From positions 62,001 to 126,000 of the forward strand of contig JAQTTU010000009.1 of assembly GCA_028710605.1 (NCBI GenBank): a stretch of DNA of 64,000 nucleotides. Reading direction: 5' to 3'. The stretch's first letter is position 1, and each line of letters starts with the position of its first letter. A program made the translations under genes and the position numbers. Origin of the DNA: Sideroxydans sp. (lineage in GTDB: Bacteria > Pseudomonadota > Gammaproteobacteria > Burkholderiales > Gallionellaceae). The notes below the pieces were generated by a model that was given only the letters and a program-made list of their open reading frames with translations, made no database searches and had not been told where the DNA came from. Of this stretch, positions 3,610 through 61,769 are shown one piece after another.

Positions 3610-3903
3610 ATGAAAAACCATCACATCGCTTCACCCGCCACCCCGTTCGATTTCGATGCCGCCCTCAAACGCGCCACCGCAGTTGCCGACGAGCAGCTCG
3701 GCGAAAATATGCTGCTCTCATGGTATGACCGCGAGCGCGACATCGAATCGCCCGCGCATGTCAGCGAGTGTCACGAGGGCTGTGCCATCAAGGGTTTCTG
3801 GGATTACGCGCTGAACCGGGGCGGGGCGCTGGCGGTGAATTTTGACGAAGGGCGTTTCGTGTTTTGCTTTATGCCGCTGGGGGATTTTGCGCGGCTAGTG
3901 TAG
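3610..3903 (+). CDS. small conserved-looking protein of unknown function
   Basis: 97 aa, soluble, no signal peptide or membrane segment. Visible traits are two Cys/His residues in SECHEGCAIKGFWDYA and a compact C-terminus FVFCFMPLGDF. I do not recognise the family with certainty. Codon use matches the neighbours and AGGGGC at 3599-3604, six bases before the ATG, is a possible ribosome site, so it looks real. The TAG stop belongs to the downstream palindromic repeat (GTAGGTGCGAATTC...), suggesting that the repeat inserted at the 3' end and now supplies the stop. Confidence 0.7.
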   Translation: MKNHHIASPATPFDFDAALKRATAVADEQLGENMLLSWYDRERDIESPAHVSECHEGCAIKGFWDYALNRGGALAVNFDEGRFVFCFMPLGDFARLV

Positions 3904-3926
3904 GTGCGAATTCATTCGCACTTACA
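3900..3926. repeat. GTAGGTGCGAA...TTCGCAC palindromic repeat, short copy
   Basis: Short inverted repeat (GTGCGAATTCATTCGCAC core). The same family occurs at 7602-7660, 35111-35168, 39333-39364 and 45969-46024. It contributes the stop codon of the preceding small gene. Confidence 0.75.
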
Positions 3927-7579: not shown

Positions 7580-7601
7580 GATGTCTCCTTGACGGGTGGG
7601 T

Positions 7602-7660
7602 GTAGGGGCGAATTCATTCGCCCAACCCAGCGTAAAACGGGCGAATGAATTCGCCCCTAC
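7602..7660. repeat. GTAGGGGCGAATTCATTCGCCC inverted repeat
   Basis: Two near-perfect arms, GTAGGGGCGAATTCATTCGC and its complement ending in GCCCCTAC, around a short centre, just upstream of the DUF1622 gene. Variant of the GTAGGTGCGAATT family. Confidence 0.85.
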
Positions 7661-7690
7661 AAAAGCGGCACAACGCCATTAGGCAAGCGC

Positions 7691-34534: not shown

Positions 34535-35085
34535 CGTGCGGCCACCTGAACGATGGAATGGGTGGGGTACTGCCATTTCCAGTTGCCGATGTGTTGGGGA
34601 ATCGTTTGCATGCTGATGCAATCCACCGGACAGGGCGCGAGGCACAACTCGCAGCCCGTGCATTCGGAAGCAATGATGGTGTGCATTTGTTTCGCCGCGC
34701 CGACGATGGCATCCACCGGGCAGGCTTGCAAACACAGGGTGCAACCGATGCAGGTGTTCTCGTCGATGAACGCCACGGCCTTGGCGCGCGGTCCCGCCCC
34801 TTCGCCGAAAGGCTTGAAATCCACGCCCAGCAATTCGGCCAGTTTGCGGATGCCTTCCTCGCCGCCGGGCGGACACAGGTTGATGTCGGCTTCGCCTTTG
34901 GCGATGGCTTCGGCGTAGGGCATGCAGCCGGGGTAGCCGCACTGGCCGCATTGCGTCTGCGGCAATACCGCGTCGATTTTTTCCACCAGCGGATTGCCTT
35001 CGACCTTGAACTTGATCGCGGAATAACCCAGCACTGCGCCCAGCAACAAAGAGATGCCGATCATCACCAACAGCGCAGAAATCAT
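34531..35085 (-). CDS. rsxB: Rnf/Rsx electron-transport subunit B
   Basis: 184 aa. N-terminal membrane anchor ([20 protein letters not shown]), Fe-S binding domain [16 protein letters not shown] and two ferredoxin-type clusters [16 protein letters not shown] and [16 protein letters not shown]. Passes electrons from ferredoxin to the membrane core. Starts 142 nt after rsxA across a palindromic repeat. Confidence 0.95.
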
Positions 35086-35110
35086 TTAGAAAATCTCGAT
35101 TGGGGTGTTT

Positions 35111-35168
35111 GTAGGTGCGAATTTATTCGCACATCGCACGTTATTTGTGCGAATAAATTCGCACCTAC
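35111..35168. repeat. GTAGGTGCGAATTTATTCGCAC palindromic repeat between rsxA and rsxB
   Basis: Two arms GTAGGTGCGAATTTATTCGC and complement around ATCGCACGTTATTT. Could fold in the rnf mRNA between the first two genes. Confidence 0.85.
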
Positions 35169-35227
35169 AAAAAAAGCACAATGCCGTGAAATATTGGAGT
35201 CGCCAGCGCCGAATAAATTTTTTGAAA

Positions 35228-39310: not shown

Positions 39311-39332
39311 GTTGAAACTCCTTGTTAAGGTG

Positions 39333-39364
39333 TTTGTCGGTGCGAATAAATTCGCACCGACAAA
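39333..39364. repeat. TTTGTCGGTGCGAATAAATTCGCACCGACAAA palindrome
   Basis: Perfect 14-bp stem with a 4-nt loop TAAA in the 82-nt gap between kdpE and kup. Related to the GTAGGTGCGAATT family. It could work as an attenuator or terminator between regulator and transporter. Confidence 0.8.
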
Positions 39365-45073: not shown

Positions 45074-45943
45074 CTATAAATCTCTCTTGGTGACGACGGG
45101 AATGGGAAACGGTTTTTTCTTGAACACTTGGCCGCGCGGCTTGCCGCGCCAATGTTCGGCGACGACATCGCCGAGTTGCAAACAGAGCAGGCCGAATACG
45201 GCGAGATAGGCGGATAGTTGCCACACCGTCGCGGAAAATAACAGCGCGCCTCCGCTCGCATCATAAACCGCCAGCGCGAGGCCGCCGACCACGATGCCGG
45301 AGAGTGCACCCAGCAAAATGCGACTCCAGTCGCCTTGCGGCAAGCCAGTAAATACGGTGCTCTCCAGCCATAGCAGTTGCAGCGCGACGAGCAGCAGCAA
45401 CGGCGCTAGCCAGAATAGCCAGCCCAAATATTCCGGCCAAACCGTGCCGCAAAACAACCCGCCCAGTGCCGCCAGCAGCAGCATGTAGGCGGCGGTTTCG
45501 GCGGGCAAGGCGGGGAGCGCGAATCTGCGCGTGTTCAAGTGCAACAGACCGGCCAGCCACAAACGGGTGAGCAACACGGTGGGCAACAGCGCCGCGCCGC
45601 ACAGCGCGGCCAGCAGCAACGAGGCGACCGGACTGACGGGAATGAACCACGCGCTTGCGAACAGATTCAGATAAGCGAGCAGCAAGCAAATGATTGCCCC
45701 GGCCACGCCGCTCCACAGCAGAAAACCGCGTTGCTCGCGCAACAGGCTGTGGCCGCTGCGGCGCAAGTTGAGCGTGTCGAGCAGCAGACCGAAAGCGAGC
45801 AGAGCGAGGGTGCCGAACAAGGCGGGCAACCAGGCTGCGCCCGCGATGGGCGCGGGTGCAACCCAATCAAGACCGGCGAGCGAGAGCGCCAGCGGCGGCA
45901 ACAGCAGCAGCGCGGCGACGTAGGCGGTGAGGCGAATAATCAT
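45074..45943 (-). CDS. integral membrane protein of unknown function
   Basis: 289 aa with about eight hydrophobic helices (LTAYVAALLLLPPLALSLAG, AAYMLLLAALGGLFCGTVWP). Start MIIRLTAYV at 45943; the longer ORF in the track is translated from the adjacent GTGCGAATT repeat (CGCEFIRTN...). No motif recognised. The short, basic C-terminus ends VVTKRDL. It precedes pyrD with no gap. Confidence 0.7.
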   Translation of the reverse strand: MIIRLTAYVAALLLLPPLALSLAGLDWVAPAPIAGAAWLPALFGTLALLAFGLLLDTLNLRRSGHSLLREQRGFLLWSGVAGAIICLLLAYLNLFASAWFIPVSPVASLLLAALCGAALLPTVLLTRLWLAGLLHLNTRRFALPALPAETAAYMLLLAALGGLFCGTVWPEYLGWLFWLAPLLLLVALQLLWLESTVFTGLPQGDWSRILLGALSGIVVGGLALAVYDASGGALLFSATVWQLSAYLAVFGLLCLQLGDVVAEHWRGKPRGQVFKKKPFPIPVVTKRDL

Positions 45944-45968
45944 TTTAACTCCCGAGGTTAGGGTGTTT

Positions 45969-46024
45969 GTAGGTGCGAATTCATTCGCACGCAACACAAT
46001 ATTCGTGCGAATGAATTCGCACCC
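45969..46024. repeat. GTAGGTGCGAATTCATTCGCAC palindromic repeat upstream of the membrane-protein gene
   Basis: Arms GTAGGTGCGAATTCATTCGC and GTGCGAATGAATTCGCACCC around CGCAACACAATATTC, between the 289-aa membrane-protein gene and bpt. Confidence 0.85.
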
Positions 46025-46052
46025 ACACACCAGCAGAATCCGCCGTAGATAT

Positions 46053-52541: not shown

Positions 52542-52990
52542 TTTCGCTCGACACCAACATTCTTGCGCGCTTCCTGCTGAACGACGATCCCGTCCAGTTC
52601 AAGCAAGCTCGCGACCTGCTGGCGCGACCCGACGAATATACCGCGCCACCCACCGTATTGCTCGAACTGGTGTGGGTGCTGGAATCCTACGACTGCACCC
52701 GCGCCGAAGTCATCCAGGCTTTGCGCGTGTTGCTGGGGCTGTCCAACTTCAAACCCAAATCGTTCGAGGCAGTTTGCTACGCGGTGAATTGGTATGAAAC
52801 AGGCATGGACTTCGGCGACGCGCTGCACCTCGCACTGAGCGCCGGAGATGATGCCTTTGCCACTTTCGACAAGGCGTTGGGAAAGTGGCGACACAGAATG
52901 GGATTGCGCCGTTGGTTAAAGTGTTGGGACGCTAATACGCATGACTGCAACATTATCCCGGATTGTCTATTAGCCGTTTGTTCACTGTAG
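52538..52990 (+). pseudogene. vapC: VapC-like PIN-domain toxin, frameshifted near the C-terminus
   Basis: 150 aa as read. PIN start ISLDTNILARFLLNDDP with first Asp; Glu in LLELVWVLES; DFGDALHLALS and FATFDKAL with further acidic residues. After FDKALGK the frame reads a Trp/Arg/Cys tail to a stop in a palindromic repeat. In the +1 frame the same DNA encodes VATQNGIAPLVKVLGR then TAA at 52933, the normal end of a PIN domain. So one base is missing at GTTGGGAAAG (about 52877-52886). The active-site acids all precede the break, so partial function is possible. A base-calling error in the GGG run is an alternative. Confidence 0.8.
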
Positions 52991-53037
52991 GAGCGAGCTT
53001 GCTCGCGAAAGCACTTCGCGAGCAAGCTCGCTCCTAC
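52987..53037. repeat. GTAGGAGCGAGCTTGCTCGCG 51-nt palindrome
   Basis: Near-perfect palindrome GTAGGAGCGAGCTTGCTCGC..., identical over 51 nt to the copy inside ribD (55903-55953). Its GTAG end supplies the stop of the frameshifted vapC. The rest of the gap to glyA (53038-53277) holds a small CCCGGGTT...AACCCGG hairpin (53061-53083) and no gene. Confidence 0.9.
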
Positions 53038-53277
53038 AAGTGCTTTCGGCCTAATGAACTACCCGGGTTTATGTTTGAACCCGGAATATCTTTACACCCA
53101 AACCCCTCCCAGCCTCCCCTTATCAAGGGAAGAATGAGGCAGTTCATGTTCGAGGTGCGAGCGTGCCTAATATATTATCTTGGATAATTCACAGCGCGGA
53201 ATCCCCAACCAATTTCCCCGCGCCTCCGTGATAAAATGCGCGCCTTTCCGTTTCCGCATCTATTTTGAAAGGCTGCC

Positions 53278-55101: not shown

Positions 55102-56244
55102 ATGCTCGATTCGACCGACAGCCAATGGATGGCGCGCGCGCTGCAACTGGCGGAGCGCGGGCTATACACCACCTCGCCCAACCCTCGCGTCGGCTGCGTG
55201 CTGGTGAAAGACGGCGCGGTGGTCGGCGAAGGCTGGCATGTGCGCGCGGGCGAGCCGCATGCCGAAGTGCACGCTTTGCGCGCGGCAGGCGATGCGGCGC
55301 GCGGTGCGACGGCGTATGTCACGCTGGAACCGTGCAGCCATTACGGGCGCACGCCGCCCTGCGCCGATGCGCTGATCGCGGCGGGTGTGGCGCGGGTAGT
55401 GATCGCCGCGCAAGACACCAATCCTCTGGTTGGCGGGCAAGGCATCGCCAAATTGCGCGCCGCAGGAATCGAAGTGGAATGCGGCTTGATGGAAGCCGCA
55501 GCGCGCGAACTCAATGTAGGATTTTTTTCGCGCATGACGCGCGGCACGCCCTGGGTGCGCAGCAAAATCGCGGCCAGTCTGGATGGTCGTACTGCGCTGG
55601 AAAACGGCACGAGCAAATGGATTACCGGCGAAGCGGCGCGACGCGACGTGCAACATTGGCGCGCGCGCTCCTGCGCGGTGTTGACCGGCATCGGCACGGT
55701 ACTGGCGGATGATCCGCAACTCAATGTGCGCGGGAAAGAAACAGAACGCCAACCATTGCGCGTGGTGCTGGATAGAAAACTGCGTATGTCGCCAGAGGCC
55801 AAAATTTTGCAAGGCGGCAACACGCTGATCTACACCGCATCGAGCGATGCGAAAAAACACGCCGCATTGCAAGCGCGCGGTGCGGAGGTGGTGGCACTTC
55901 CTGTAGGAGCGAGCTTGCTCGCGAAAGCACTTCGCGAGCAAGCTCGCTCCTACAACAGCGAAGCATCGCTCGATCTGGCCGCAGTCATGCGCGACCTGGC
56001 GCAACGCGGCATCAACGAGGTGCTGGTGGAAGCCGGGCGCACGCTGAACGGCGCGCTGTTCAGGGCGGGTTTGGTGGATGAACTGGTGCTGTATCTGGCA
56101 CCGCAACTGTTGGGCGATGCCGCGCGCGGCATGGCGGATTTGGGTGCGCTGACGCAACTGGAGCAGCGCGTGGAACTGGCGTGGCAGGATGTGCGCCAGG
56201 TGGGAAACGATTTACGGATAACAGCGAGGATCAAAAATGTTTAG
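55102..56244 (+). CDS. ribD: riboflavin biosynthesis protein RibD (deaminase/reductase)
   Basis: 380 aa. N-terminal zinc deaminase (PHAEVHALRAAG and TLEPCSHYGRTPPC) and C-terminal NADPH reductase from ~145 (SKIAASLDGRTALENGTSKW). Between residues ~268 and 284 (VGASLLAKALREQARSY) the sequence is a 51-nt palindromic repeat in frame, replacing or extending a surface loop; the reductase continues after it (DLAAVMRDLAQRGINEVLVE). Two nucleotides after nrdR, overlapping ribE by 8 nt. Confidence 0.95.
   Translation: MLDSTDSQWMARALQLAERGLYTTSPNPRVGCVLVKDGAVVGEGWHVRAGEPHAEVHALRAAGDAARGATAYVTLEPCSHYGRTPPCADALIAAGVARVVIAAQDTNPLVGGQGIAKLRAAGIEVECGLMEAAARELNVGFFSRMTRGTPWVRSKIAASLDGRTALENGTSKWITGEAARRDVQHWRARSCAVLTGIGTVLADDPQLNVRGKETERQPLRVVLDRKLRMSPEAKILQGGNTLIYTASSDAKKHAALQARGAEVVALPVGASLLAKALREQARSYNSEASLDLAAVMRDLAQRGINEVLVEAGRTLNGALFRAGLVDELVLYLAPQLLGDAARGMADLGALTQLEQRVELAWQDVRQVGNDLRITARIKNV
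55903..55953. repeat. GTAGGAGCGAGCTTGCTCGCG palindrome inside ribD
   Basis: 51 nt, identical to 52987-53037; 51 is a multiple of three and has no stop in this frame, so it is read as 17 residues. Confidence 0.92.
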
Positions 56245-56833
56245 CGGAATTATTGCCGATGTGGGATTGATTAAAACTGCGCAAGATCGCGATGGCGGTT
56301 TGCGCCTGACCGTGGCCACCAGCAAGCTCGGCATGGACGATGTGCAACTCGGAGACAGCATCGCGGTGAACGGGGTATGCCTCACCGTGATCGAAAAGCA
56401 GGGCAACGATTTTACGGTGGAAGTCTCGCGCGAAACCCTGAACTGCACCGCCGGGCTGGACAAGCAAGGCAATCACGTCAATCTGGAAAAAGCCTTGCGT
56501 TTGTCCGACCGTTTGGGCGGGCATCTGGTCAGCGGTCACGTCGATGGCGTGGGCGAAGTGGCGAGCTTCACCAACCTGGGTGAAAGCTGGCGCTTGGTTG
56601 TGCGCGCCCCGCAAACACTGGCGAAATACATCGCGTTCAAAGGTTCCATCACCATCAACGGCGTGAGCCTCACCGTGAACCGGGTGGCGGGCAGCGAGTT
56701 TGAGGTCAACCTGATCCCGCATACCTTGCAGGAAACCACGCTGAAGGAATTGCAGGCCGGCACGCGCGTCAATCTGGAAATCGACCTGATCGCGCGTTAC
56801 GTCGAGCGCATGCAAACAGCGGATAATGTGTAA
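56237..56833 (+). CDS. ribE: riboflavin synthase, alpha subunit
   Basis: 198 aa. Two lumazine-binding repeats; MFSGIIADVGLIKT and NGVCLTVIEKQGNDFTVEVS, repeated as ITINGVSLTVNRV. Dismutates lumazine to riboflavin. The ATG at 56237 lies in ribD. Followed by an intergenic truncated copy of the 65-nt element and the zeta-like module. Confidence 0.95.
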   Translation: MFSGIIADVGLIKTAQDRDGGLRLTVATSKLGMDDVQLGDSIAVNGVCLTVIEKQGNDFTVEVSRETLNCTAGLDKQGNHVNLEKALRLSDRLGGHLVSGHVDGVGEVASFTNLGESWRLVVRAPQTLAKYIAFKGSITINGVSLTVNRVAGSEFEVNLIPHTLQETTLKELQAGTRVNLEIDLIARYVERMQTADNV

Positions 56834-56839
56834 ACGCAC

Positions 56840-56856
56840 CGCGTGAAGATGCCCGC
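56840..56856 (+). repeat. truncated 65-nt element fragment (left flank of zeta module)
   Basis: CGCGTGAAGATGCCCGC, matching the first 15 nt of copy F's arm exactly (CGTGAAGATGCCCGC) and, with 2 mismatches over 17 nt, the left arm of copy F at 57731-57747. The zeta-like module lies between these two. Confidence 0.6.
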
Positions 56857-56898
56857 TTTTGTCCGACAAGACAGCTGCAATATTTTCAAGGAGAAAAC

Positions 56899-57090
56899 AT
56901 GCAAGTCGAACGTTTTGATCTAAACGATATTCAGCATGAACCTAGCGACAAGCAACTTGAATCATTGATGGATTCGGTGGCGGATGCGGCGCGAATCCGG
57001 GCGGCGCAAGCAAAGGAAAAAATGCTGCTGCGCCTGCGCGCCGAAATCGTGTCGGCCAAATCGCTTACGAGACAAAATGAACGGGCTTGA
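56899..57090 (+). CDS. small protein, candidate antitoxin of the zeta-like toxin
   Basis: 63 aa, acidic front, helical and basic tail (MQVERFDLNDIQHEPSDKQL, AARIRAAQAKEKMLLRLRAE). Strong AAGGAG ribosome site. It overlaps the next gene by 14 nt. No recognised family; its position, small size and coupling to a zeta-type kinase suggest an antitoxin. Known epsilon antitoxins differ in sequence, so it would be a new type or merely a helper. Confidence 0.65.
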   Translation: MQVERFDLNDIQHEPSDKQLESLMDSVADAARIRAAQAKEKMLLRLRAEIVSAKSLTRQNERA

Positions 57091-57694
57091 AAAGCCGCGT
57101 CTTATTGTGGTCGCCGGCCCGAACGGTGCTGGCAAAACTTCTATCACCGAGCAACTGCTCCGCCATGAATGGATGGAAGGGTGCGCTTATGTCAATCCCG
57201 ATTTTGTCGCGCGCGACGAATTTGGGGATTGGAATGCGCCCGATGCGGTTATCAAAGCAGCCGTGCGATCCGCAGAAATCCGTGAGGCATGTTTGAAAGA
57301 GTCGCGCAGCCTGGCTTTTGAAACCGTGCTCTCCATGCCGGACAAGTTGGAATTTATTCGCAGGGCCAAAGAAGCCGGTTTTTTTGTCCGCCTGTTTTTT
57401 GTGGGTACGGATGACCCTTCCATCAATGCCAAGCGCGTTGCACTGCGGGTGATGGAAGGTGGACATGACGTGCCTATAGCCAAGATCATCGCCCGATATA
57501 CGCGCTCCATCGCCAATTGCACCGTCGCGGCGCGCATTGCCGACCGCTCATATATTTACGATAACTCGGTCGATGATGTGTCTGCCCGTCTCTTGTTCCG
57601 TGCGAGCGAGGGGCGATTGGTCAAGTGCTACGGCAATACAAATAGCTGGGCGCAAAATATTTTGGAGAATCTGAGTGGCAGTTCTCATTCTTGA
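57077..57694 (+). CDS. zeta-toxin family P-loop kinase
   Basis: 205 aa. Walker A GPNGAGKTS at residues ~14-22, DFVARDEFGDWN following, ESRSLAFETVLSMPDKLEFI and a Walker-B-like FFVRLFFVGTDDP. Zeta toxins phosphorylate UDP-GlcNAc (or related) and stop wall synthesis. Many chromosomal homologues are annotated as predicted ABC-type ATPases without tested function. Start ATG at 57077; the track's longer ORF is a frame extension. Codon use resembles the neighbours. Confidence 0.8.
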   Translation: MNGLEKPRLIVVAGPNGAGKTSITEQLLRHEWMEGCAYVNPDFVARDEFGDWNAPDAVIKAAVRSAEIREACLKESRSLAFETVLSMPDKLEFIRRAKEAGFFVRLFFVGTDDPSINAKRVALRVMEGGHDVPIAKIIARYTRSIANCTVAARIADRSYIYDNSVDDVSARLLFRASEGRLVKCYGNTNSWAQNILENLSGSSHS

Positions 57695-57732
57695 ATTTGG
57701 GGTGTATTACATTTCAATTTGATACCCCATCG

Positions 57733-57806
57733 CGTGAAGACTCCCGCCAATAGGCGACCTACATGATGTCCATGCGGCAAATCGCCTATTGGCGGGCATC
57801 TTCACG
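57733..57806 (+). repeat. 65-nt element copy F, perfect-palindrome form (74 nt)
   Basis: CGTGAAGACTCCCGCCAATA...TATTGGCGGGCATCTTCACG. Stem of about 24 bp with one 2-nt mismatch around a 26-nt centre. It differs from the others in carrying a full complementary right arm. Lies in the 147-nt gap between the zeta-like gene and the convergent outer-membrane gene; could also act as a two-way terminator. Confidence 0.9.
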
Positions 57807-57841
57807 TTGTGTCGTGATTGAAAAACTCCCGGAATGAATCC

Positions 57842-58381
57842 TTAAAACGCCATCCCCGCCTGAATCTGAATGCTAAAGTTGCCGCTGGATTCTTCCGAGC
57901 TGATGGCGGTTTGGGTGGTCAGGTTGGCGTTGGGGGCGATGAACATGCCCAGATTGTAGTAAATGTTTTTGCCTAACAACCCGGTGAAGCCGCCGCCGAA
58001 ATACAGATCGGCCCGGGATTGGGTGTCCGACGCGGCGGCCACCAACAGCGGCGTTTCGGTGCGCGTCCATTTCAGCAGCGAAGCGCCCGCGTAAAACGAA
58101 CTATCCGCTGCGGGGTGAAACAGGTAAACCAGTTGCGGGCCGGCCAGCGTGTTGGTGGTTGAAGAGTGCGCGTTGCCGCTAAAGGGGTCGTGGAATACGT
58201 CGGTCCAGCGTATGTATTGGAAGCCGAACTGGTAATGGCTTTGCGGCGCGCGGTAGTTGATCTGGAAGTCCGCACCGTCCTGTGCCAGCGCAAACACGCC
58301 GACCCCGACTTGCAATCCTTCGGCTTGCGCCAATGAGTTATGCAATAGCAGCATTGTCGCAATCAACCAAAACTTTCGCAT
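57842..58381 (-). CDS. outer-membrane beta-barrel protein of unknown function
   Basis: 179 aa with signal peptide ending LAQAEG. Alternating hydrophobic strands (FALAQDGADFQINYRAPQSH, YYNLGMFIAPNANLTTQTAI) and a terminal aromatic (AGMAF) typical of small outer-membrane barrels; the size and pattern recall OmpW/PagL-type barrels but no signature is decisive. Ribosome site GAGGGAG. Sits with the zeta module between ribE and ribBA. Confidence 0.75.
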   Translation of the reverse strand: MRKFWLIATMLLLHNSLAQAEGLQVGVGVFALAQDGADFQINYRAPQSHYQFGFQYIRWTDVFHDPFSGNAHSSTTNTLAGPQLVYLFHPAADSSFYAGASLLKWTRTETPLLVAAASDTQSRADLYFGGGFTGLLGKNIYYNLGMFIAPNANLTTQTAISSEESSGNFSIQIQAGMAF

Positions 58382-58517: not shown

Positions 58518-59624
58518 ATGACTGACATCGCACCAATCACCGAAATCATCGAAGAAATACGTGCCGGACGCATGGTCGTGCTGGTGGACGAAGAAGACCG
58601 CGAGAACGAAGGCGATCTGGTATTTGCCGCCGAATTCACCACGCCGGAAAAGATCAACTTCATGGCCAAACACGGGCGCGGACTGATTTGCCTGACGCTG
58701 ACGCAAGAACATTGCCAGCAACTCAACCTGCCGCTGATGGTGCGCGATAACGGGCTGTCTCTGGCGACCAATTTCACCGTTTCCATCGAAGCCGCTACCG
58801 GCGTGACCACCGGCATTTCCGCCGCTGACCGTTCGCGTACTATCAAGGTCGCAGCGGACAAGAATGCCAAACCCGCCGACATCGTCCAGCCCGGCCACAT
58901 CTTCCCGTTGCGCGCGCAACCCGGCGGCGTGCTGGTGCGCGCCGGACACACCGAAGCGGGCTGCGATCTGGCGCAACTGGCGGGCGTGATGCCAGCCTCG
59001 GTGATCTGCGAAATTTTGAAAGAGGACGGCGAAATGGCGCGCCTGCCCGACCTGATCCCGTTCGCCAAGGAACACGGTTTGAAGATAGGCACCATCGCCG
59101 ATCTGATCGAGTATCGCAGCCACAACGAAACGCTGATCCAGCGCGTGGCGCGGCGCACGGTGCAGACCGCCTACGGCGAGCTCGATCTGGTGACCTACAC
59201 CGACAAGACTTCGCAGCGCACGCATCTGGCGCTGGTCAAGGGCGACATCCAGCCGGAAACGGAAACGCTGGTGCGCGTGCACGAGCCGCTGTCGGCGCTG
59301 GATTTTCTGGAACAAGTCAGCCTGCCCAACACCACCAGCGTGCATGACGCGCTGAAGCGCATCAGCCAGTCCGATGCGGGCGTGCTGGTGCTGATGCATC
59401 ACACCGAAACCTCGGCGGACATTCTGGCGCGCGCCGCCGCCATGCCCGAGCCGCAACACGCGAAATGGGATCCGCGCAACTACGGCATAGGCGCGCAGAT
59501 ATTGCGCGACCTCAACGTCGGCAAGATGTGCCTGATCGCCACCCCGCGCAAACTGCCGAGCATGACTGGCTTCGGTTTGGAAATTGTGGGGTATTGCTGT
59601 GCTAATAAGGACAAGAAAGCGTAA
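58518..59624 (+). CDS. ribB: 3,4-dihydroxy-2-butanone 4-phosphate synthase with degenerate GTP cyclohydrolase II domain (RibBA-like)
   Basis: 368 aa. N-terminal DHBP synthase, VDEEDRENEGDLVFAAE, RAGHTEAGCDLAQLAG, intact. The C-terminal ~160 residues keep the GTP-cyclohydrolase II outline (PRNYGIGAQILRDLNVG). The zinc-binding Cys motif is gone (VRVHEPLSALDFLEQ in its place), so GTP cyclohydrolase activity is unlikely; a separate ribA must exist. ATG at 58518; the longer ORF in the track is rejected. No FMN riboswitch was seen upstream. Confidence 0.93.
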   Translation: MTDIAPITEIIEEIRAGRMVVLVDEEDRENEGDLVFAAEFTTPEKINFMAKHGRGLICLTLTQEHCQQLNLPLMVRDNGLSLATNFTVSIEAATGVTTGISAADRSRTIKVAADKNAKPADIVQPGHIFPLRAQPGGVLVRAGHTEAGCDLAQLAGVMPASVICEILKEDGEMARLPDLIPFAKEHGLKIGTIADLIEYRSHNETLIQRVARRTVQTAYGELDLVTYTDKTSQRTHLALVKGDIQPETETLVRVHEPLSALDFLEQVSLPNTTSVHDALKRISQSDAGVLVLMHHTETSADILARAAAMPEPQHAKWDPRNYGIGAQILRDLNVGKMCLIATPRKLPSMTGFGLEIVGYCCANKDKKA

Positions 59625-60806: not shown

Positions 60807-61769
60807 ATGTCTTCTGAATTCGATCTCATTCAACGCTATTTCACCCGCCCCGCGCCGAGCGCGGTGTTGGGCGTGGGCGACGATGCGGCGTTGTTGCGCG
60901 TGGGCGAGGGCATGGAGCTGGCGGTTTCCACCGACATGCTGGTGAGCGGTACGCATTTTTTCCCCGATGCCGATCCTTTTCTGCTGGGCTACAAAACGCT
61001 GGCGGTGAATCTTTCCGACATGGCCGCGATGGGCGCTGCGCCGCGCTGGGCCACGCTGTCGCTGGCGTTGCCGGAAGCGAATGAAACTTGGCTGAAAAAA
61101 TTCAGCGCGGGATTTTTTGCGCTGGCCGACGAGCACAAAATCGAACTTGTCGGCGGCGACACCACGCGCGGCCCGCTCAACCTGTGCGTCACCATCATGG
61201 GCGAAGTGCCTAGCGGCAAAGCGCTGCGCCGCAGCGGCGCGCAAATCGGCGACGACATCTGGGTGTCCGGCGAATTGGGCGAAGCCGCGCTGGGGCTGGC
61301 GCATCTGCAAAAAGAAATCGAACTGCCCGAAGATGCCCGTGTTTCCTGCCTTACCGCGCTGCATCAACCGCAGCCGCGCGTGGCATTGGGACTGAAATTG
61401 CGCGACATCGCCAACAGCGCGGTCGATATATCGGACGGGCTGCTGGCCGATCTCGGGCACATTCTCGACTGTTCCAATGTGGCTGCCGAAGTGCGCTACG
61501 ACAAGATGCCGCTGTCGCCGCTGTTCGCTTCCGGCCATCTCGTGGCGCAGGAAATGATGCGGCGCTGCGTGCTGTCCGGCGGCGACGACTACGAATTGTG
61601 TTTCACCGCCCCGGTGGCGCGACGCGACGAGATCGAAGCGCTGGAGCACCTGTTTCATTTGCCGCTGACCCGTATCGGTAAAATCGTTTCCGGGCAAGGA
61701 TGCAAGGTGCGCGCGCATGACGGCAATGCGCTGCATATCGAGAAAGGCGGCTATGACCACTTCGCGTGA
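60807..61769 (+). CDS. thiL: thiamine-monophosphate kinase
   Basis: 320 aa. Makes thiamine diphosphate, the cofactor of AHAS and the ThDP enzyme in this window. Motifs VGDDAALLRVGEGMELAVST, NLSDMAAMGAAPRW, ELVGGDTTRGPLN, and DISDGLLADLGH carry the Mg/ATP-binding acidic residues. Overlaps pgpA by 17 nt. Confidence 0.96.
   Translation: MSSEFDLIQRYFTRPAPSAVLGVGDDAALLRVGEGMELAVSTDMLVSGTHFFPDADPFLLGYKTLAVNLSDMAAMGAAPRWATLSLALPEANETWLKKFSAGFFALADEHKIELVGGDTTRGPLNLCVTIMGEVPSGKALRRSGAQIGDDIWVSGELGEAALGLAHLQKEIELPEDARVSCLTALHQPQPRVALGLKLRDIANSAVDISDGLLADLGHILDCSNVAAEVRYDKMPLSPLFASGHLVAQEMMRRCVLSGGDDYELCFTAPVARRDEIEALEHLFHLPLTRIGKIVSGQGCKVRAHDGNALHIEKGGYDHFA

Follow-up and report, generated by a model that had tools for sequence, protein, structure and literature searches.

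How did a two-gene toxin module come to stand between the riboflavin genes ribE and ribBA, with copies of one repeated element on either side? The locus lies in the window, the 64,000-nt stretch analysed here, which is part of a 3.36-Mb assembly (Sideroxydans sp., labelled G000; the window contig is contig 13, positions 62001-126000). The original prediction read the arrangement as a cassette that had arrived next to repeat copies, or by recombination between them. The slot contains the following features.

56237-56833, plus strand: ribE, for the riboflavin synthase alpha chain; host gene on the left side of the slot (Lum_binding, 164 bits; syntenic in relatives)
56836-56856, plus strand: E1, the 5' remnant of a resident REPIN copy of which about 20 nt are left; junction with the module at 56856/56857 (covariance model R1, 20.9 bits; end of the homology between G000 and its sister genome G017)
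56857-56898, plus strand: 42-nt module leader with the RBS AAGGAG
56899-57090, plus strand: 63-aa ORF of the antitoxin-like partner (upstream small ORF conserved; no Pfam family)
57077-57694, plus strand: putative toxin kinase of the zeta/PezT family, 205 aa (Pfam Zeta_toxin PF06414, E=1.4e-9)
57712-57826, no strand assigned: complete REPIN-like element F, core 57727-57808 (R1, 72.1 bits on the plus and 67.9 bits on the minus strand)
57842-58381, minus strand: 179-aa convergent gene, predicted exported, outer-membrane-like, no Pfam family
58518-59624, plus strand: ribBA, host gene right of the slot (NF010626, 594 bits)

Two 17-nt direct repeats, CGCGTGAAGATGCCCGC at 56840-56856 and CGCGTGAAGACTCCCGC at 57731-57747, both on the plus strand, flank the ORFs at 56899-57090 (63 aa) and 57077-57694 (205 aa) and, as claimed, differ at two of 17 positions. 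The partner ORF and the toxin gene overlap by 14 nt, and F lies between convergent genes, its core beginning 33 nt past the zeta stop.

The module and the repeat

The 205-aa protein exceeds the Pfam Zeta_toxin cut-off (38.1 versus 22.3 bits) and has an intact Walker A motif (GPNGAGKT, residues 14-21), which, together with the conserved aspartate D42, is found in 38 of 38 aligned proteins. According to its structural model (pLDDT 89), the protein has the zeta fold; the top PDB matches are PezT 2p5t and zeta 1gvn/3q8x (E 1.6e-8 to 3e-7, TM about 0.6), followed by AvrRxo1. The 63-aa protein encoded upstream combines the motif FDLNDIxHEPSDxQLxxLM with one long helix (predicted helix 17-62) and matched no Pfam, NCBIfam or PADLOC family. 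All 80 public loci read have a small ORF of about 60 aa upstream of the toxin gene (two of these calls are doubtful), and 70 of them show an EP[ST]D..L..LM-type motif. We regard the 63-aa protein as a putative antitoxin-like partner. The substrate of known zeta toxins is UDP-GlcNAc; judging from its family, the protein described here would phosphorylate a nucleotide-sugar unless held by the small helical partner. A promoter search at the 42-nt leader found no dedicated sigma-70-like promoter, so the module, which would be read through from ribE, is likely co-transcribed with it.

Protein relatives with 60-80% identity over the full length were found in 8 of 299 relatives of this genome, none of them in the genus, and the public genome collection holds 325 encoding stretches, from Proteobacteria, Bacteroidota, Chlorobi and others. 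In two genomes of other genera (L113, L117) the module stands directly upstream of a nadD-like gene, as if riding housekeeping operons. A plasmid origin was considered and set aside: PLSDB yielded no DNA match, and the protein relatives in it are less than 60% identical.

The repeat belongs to a large family. With one mismatch at most, the pattern CGTGAAGANNCCCGC has 68 matches in the genome and the reversed control pattern 10. Aligned copies share the left arm CGTGAAGATGCCCG[CT]CAATAGGCGATCT[AG]C, and the right arm is either its inverted match (GTAGATCGCCTATTGACGGGC) or a diverged form (GGAGATGGCCGTGTTTATTGGCTTGCGGGC); many copies are extended by outer arms (TTTCAAAAC.../...GTTTTGAAA). The inner tags of 27 left arms include GTAG (7), GCAG (11) and GCGG (5), and those of right arms are mostly GGAG or GTAG. 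In the 64-kb window, the covariance model R1 recovered six full copies, the left fragment (E=0.0026 in 64 kb) and a second fragment at 61320. Across G000 it matched at least 132 copies among 150 scored candidates, and random loci suggest about 360 in all. At least 150 matches were obtained in each of the sister species G017 and G025, and 0 or 1 in each of 15 other genomes of the genus and family.

Copy F had been described as a 65-nt perfect palindrome. It is longer, with an 82-nt core and outer arms (TTTCAAAACnCCACC... / ...GGTTTTGAAA) and a span of about 57712-57826, and the palindrome is imperfect: of the 25 positions in its arms (57733-57757 and 57782-57806), 23 match, the exceptions being the same two-base difference that was counted between the 17-nt repeats. 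As a single strand, F folds with its two inverted REPs paired together (-30.2 kcal/mol, z -9.2; the G017 copy has z -3.8), and the hairpin of a single arm is weak (-3.1 kcal/mol, z -1.05). At the convergent 3' ends, F would act as a hairpin. Such short imperfect palindromes, found here in many copies in intergenic gaps, are described in the REP literature as tail-to-tail (TT) dimers of GTAG REPs, or REPINs (PMC3733652, PMC3116915). We read the element as REPIN-like, two GTAG-like REPs joined tail to tail, and its hundreds of copies are restricted to this clade of three species.

REP-associated Y1 transposases are also encoded in G000, scoring 133 and 89 bits against NF047646. An element copy lies within about 200-300 nt at four of roughly nine RAYT loci, where 0.17-0.24 would be expected, and two RAYT genes have copies within about 110-170 nt. 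We infer that the elements are moved by these RAYT (Y1/HUH) transposases.

Other palindromic families occur in the window. A second REP-dimer family (GTAGGAGCGAGCTTGCTCGCGAA, tags outward) has a copy at 55901-55955, in frame inside the ribD coding sequence, and another, identical to it over 55 nt, at 52985-53039. A further REP-like family (GTAGGTGCGAATTCATTCGCAC...) is found at 3887-3926, 7594-7661, 35080-35169, 39328-39362 and 45938-46027.

History of the ribE–ribBA slot

The truncated left copy is real: its 13 fixed bases would be expected by chance about 2e-6 times in the gap, and the fragment aligns with a complete element at the matching place in G017. In that genome (RibE 92%), the element directly follows the ribE stop (L091:1723-1804, 68.7 bits), and a 550-aa NHL-repeat gene, a degenerate element piece, the convergent gene and ribBA come after it. 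In G025, the element after ribE is shortened and degenerate. DNA homology between G000 and G017 covers 56702-56856, breaks off precisely where the left copy is cut, and picks up again with the convergent gene. The left fragment is thus the stump of an older resident element, inside which the new DNA starts. This comparison shows that the position directly behind the ribE stop was occupied by a REPIN copy before the zeta module came, and that the left junction of the module lies inside that copy, leaving about its first 20 nt. The proposal that the module arrived next to a repeat copy is thus supported. Element F may be older than the module too, because a degenerate copy in G017 that matches its place (L091:3766-3806, 17.5 bits only) lies about 30 nt from the convergent gene.

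The other proposed route, recombination between copies, finds no support at this locus. Crossing over between two copies should produce a chimera of full length, whereas the left copy breaks off at about 20 nt and non-element DNA comes next. As it is truncated and no chimera, we rejected direct recombination between E1 and F as the simple explanation. A target-site duplication of the transposon kind was discarded as well: the 17 nt shared by the two flanks are element sequence and not target.

Nor did the module part ribE from ribBA, as had been supposed. The convergent gene also lies in the gap and occupies the same locus in G017 (85% identity) and G001 (58%), and in G017 it stands there together with the NHL-repeat gene. 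The two rib genes are about 15 nt apart in nine genus members and 0.2-3.4 kb apart in most closer relatives. In G025 they are on separate contigs (C12/C14): ribE is followed by a P-type ATPase gene, and ribBA is preceded by a threonine-synthase-like gene. We considered the NHL-repeat gene of G017 as ancestral cargo of the slot and dismissed it, as it has only paralogues elsewhere in the genus.

The occurrence of the module elsewhere without these flanks would, by the terms of the original prediction, count against it, and this is what was observed. No significant repeat copy was found at the 8 close module loci in the order or at the 80 public ones, and we accordingly dropped the idea of a REPIN flank that travels with the module.

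We consider it probable that a mobile two-gene toxin–antitoxin module of the zeta/PezT kind was captured in a gap between genes where REPIN-like elements were already present, such gaps being tolerant and breakable. Hairpins and nicking by RAYTs could make REPIN-bearing gaps breakable, and small incoming modules would be joined there without extensive homology.

Repeat copies beside toxin–antitoxin genes

The wider idea of a link between repeat copies and such modules is borne out in G000 for several toxin families. Of 29 PIN toxin genes, with one tandem duplicate counted once, 13 have an element copy no more than 150 nt away on their 3' side, versus 13 of the 104 ORFs at random loci, which contain 14 copies (odds ratio 5.7, p=3e-4). 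At the scale of the 3.3-kb locus, 21 of 29 PIN genes have a copy, whereas random loci have one in 13 of 39 cases (p=0.003) and response-regulator loci in 8 of 30 (p=0.0007). Three PIN loci overlap each other, which makes all these p-values somewhat optimistic. In G000, the frequency of copies just 3' of toxin–antitoxin (TA) genes is about four times that at other genes. Because copies favour gene 3' ends generally and TA genes live in variable DNA, part of this association may reflect shared tolerance rather than cause.

Bracketing, by comparison, was rejected as evidence in itself, since the spacing of copies is near random (9 pairs closer than 1 kb versus 5.5 expected, with a 95% limit of 9). 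One could argue that the bracket around the zeta module is a coincidence, the repeat being so common in gaps that small modules are often flanked by it. Its abundance, its near-random spacing and the occurrence of the zeta module elsewhere without such a repeat all fit this explanation. However, it does not account for the excess of copies 3' of PIN genes, for a left module junction inside an element, or for the content of short intervals. Indeed, six of the 11 G000 intervals between copies less than 1.1 kb apart hold TA genes (VapC with an AbrB-type gene, Phd with VapC, a HigBA-like pair, PIN with RHH, an XRE antitoxin and a duplicated PIN gene), as do three of eight short intervals in G017 (MqsRA, BrnTA and a frameshifted ParDE-like pair). 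Two short intervals were read in G025, neither with TA genes. Overall, we judge coincidence unlikely.

Sister genomes again help to order events. We searched the flanks of eight G000 TA loci in G017 and G025. At a Phd/VapC locus on contig C3 and at VapBC loci on C9 and C15, a sister genome already carries the element, and its edge is where synteny breaks off. Including the zeta site, alignments therefore place the repeat before the module in a sister genome at four TA sites, with the module edge at or inside the repeat. At another locus (L300) the break is not at an element.

Two regions bear on the possibility of a cassette exchange, in which a circle or fragment carrying element and module recombined homologously with a resident element, leaving direct repeats on both sides. 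At the C3 locus, homology with G017 starts exactly at the outer end of the right element. At L273 (G000:C17:111000-114300), a PIN-toxin gene and an element are tandemly duplicated as a unit, with 99.3% identity over 876 nt and a period of 942 nt. Direct repeats flanking the zeta and other TA modules would also be expected from such an exchange. At the zeta site, however, the cut left copy is joined to unique DNA, unlike a crossover product, F gives no sign of being a chimera with E1, and in other genomes no repeat copy accompanies the module. We regard this route as distinctly improbable for the zeta module.

A different configuration was observed at L299 (G000:C10, about 115.1-116.1 kb), where a 1.05-kb insert with a VapBC-type module and an element lies between 9-bp direct repeats, GTGACTTGC. 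Both sisters lack module and element, and G017 has the exact empty site; with the element missing from these empty sites, the repeat at L299 may have come with or after the module. A single insert of this kind, in a genome whose RAYT genes have flanking copies, is what one would predict if RAYTs moved modules as passengers of REP-ended, REPtron-like units. Yet the two ends of the L299 insert are not a matching pair of REPs, and the left end at the zeta locus has no REP hairpin. RAYTs are not known to move genes other than the RAYT itself, and we consider such carriage of the zeta module very improbable. At other loci, both recombination between copies and RAYT carriage are possible.

A repeat-associated partial duplication is seen at L271 (G000:C22:317000-320600). 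There, a 5' gene fragment and a GNAT gene, bracketed by three element copies in direct orientation, precede a longer copy of the fragmented gene.

Beyond capture in a tolerant slot, a broader and more tentative suggestion is that REPIN-like elements in this clade are entry points, resident copies, perhaps nicked by RAYTs, repeatedly taking up small TA modules of many families, at their edges or within them. We find this conceivable, though doubtful. If it were true, a selfish palindrome population would shape where TA genes settle.

Relation to known systems

A clade with hundreds of REPINs beside many TA families, and with sister sites that preserve the state before the module, makes it possible to test how TA modules find their place in chromosomes and how REPINs help or harm their hosts. 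The kind of TA module and the kind of repeat are already known; what was not expected is that the repeats favour TA genes and that breaks fall at the edges of elements. A literature search, with subscription journals mostly outside its reach, found no paper joining REPs and TA modules in such a way. In addition, the zeta pair contributes a widespread predicted kinase toxin whose antitoxin-like partner falls outside current Pfam families.

The repeat resembles GTAG REPs and REPINs (PMC3733652, PMC3116915) in its inverted pairing and its hundreds of copies, which lie mostly just 3' of genes, have RAYT genes nearby and are confined to one clade, and it may share their short imperfect hairpin beside a GTAG-like tag. 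It differs in that the tag is often GCAG, GCGG or GGAG, in its inward-facing tags and extended outer arms, and in its strong placement by TA genes; we found no description of this sequence family for the group.

Compared with epsilon/zeta and PezAT (PMC3062530; PDB 1gvn, 2p5t, 3q8x), the module has the same two-gene order, partner first, and a predicted toxin of the zeta/PezT fold with an intact Walker A motif. Its partner, however, is a 63-aa protein with an N-terminal FDLNDI, a single long predicted helix and no Pfam family, whereas epsilon and PezA are larger helical bundles, and its toxin, at 205 aa, is shorter and shares only 11-19% identity in the structural alignment. In AvrRxo1:Arc1 (PMC4938570; PDB 4z8q), too, the partner of the zeta-fold kinase is small and unrelated (E about 1e-6 for the fold match), but that toxin is longer and its gene is followed by the partner gene, whereas here the partner gene lies upstream and overlaps the toxin gene.
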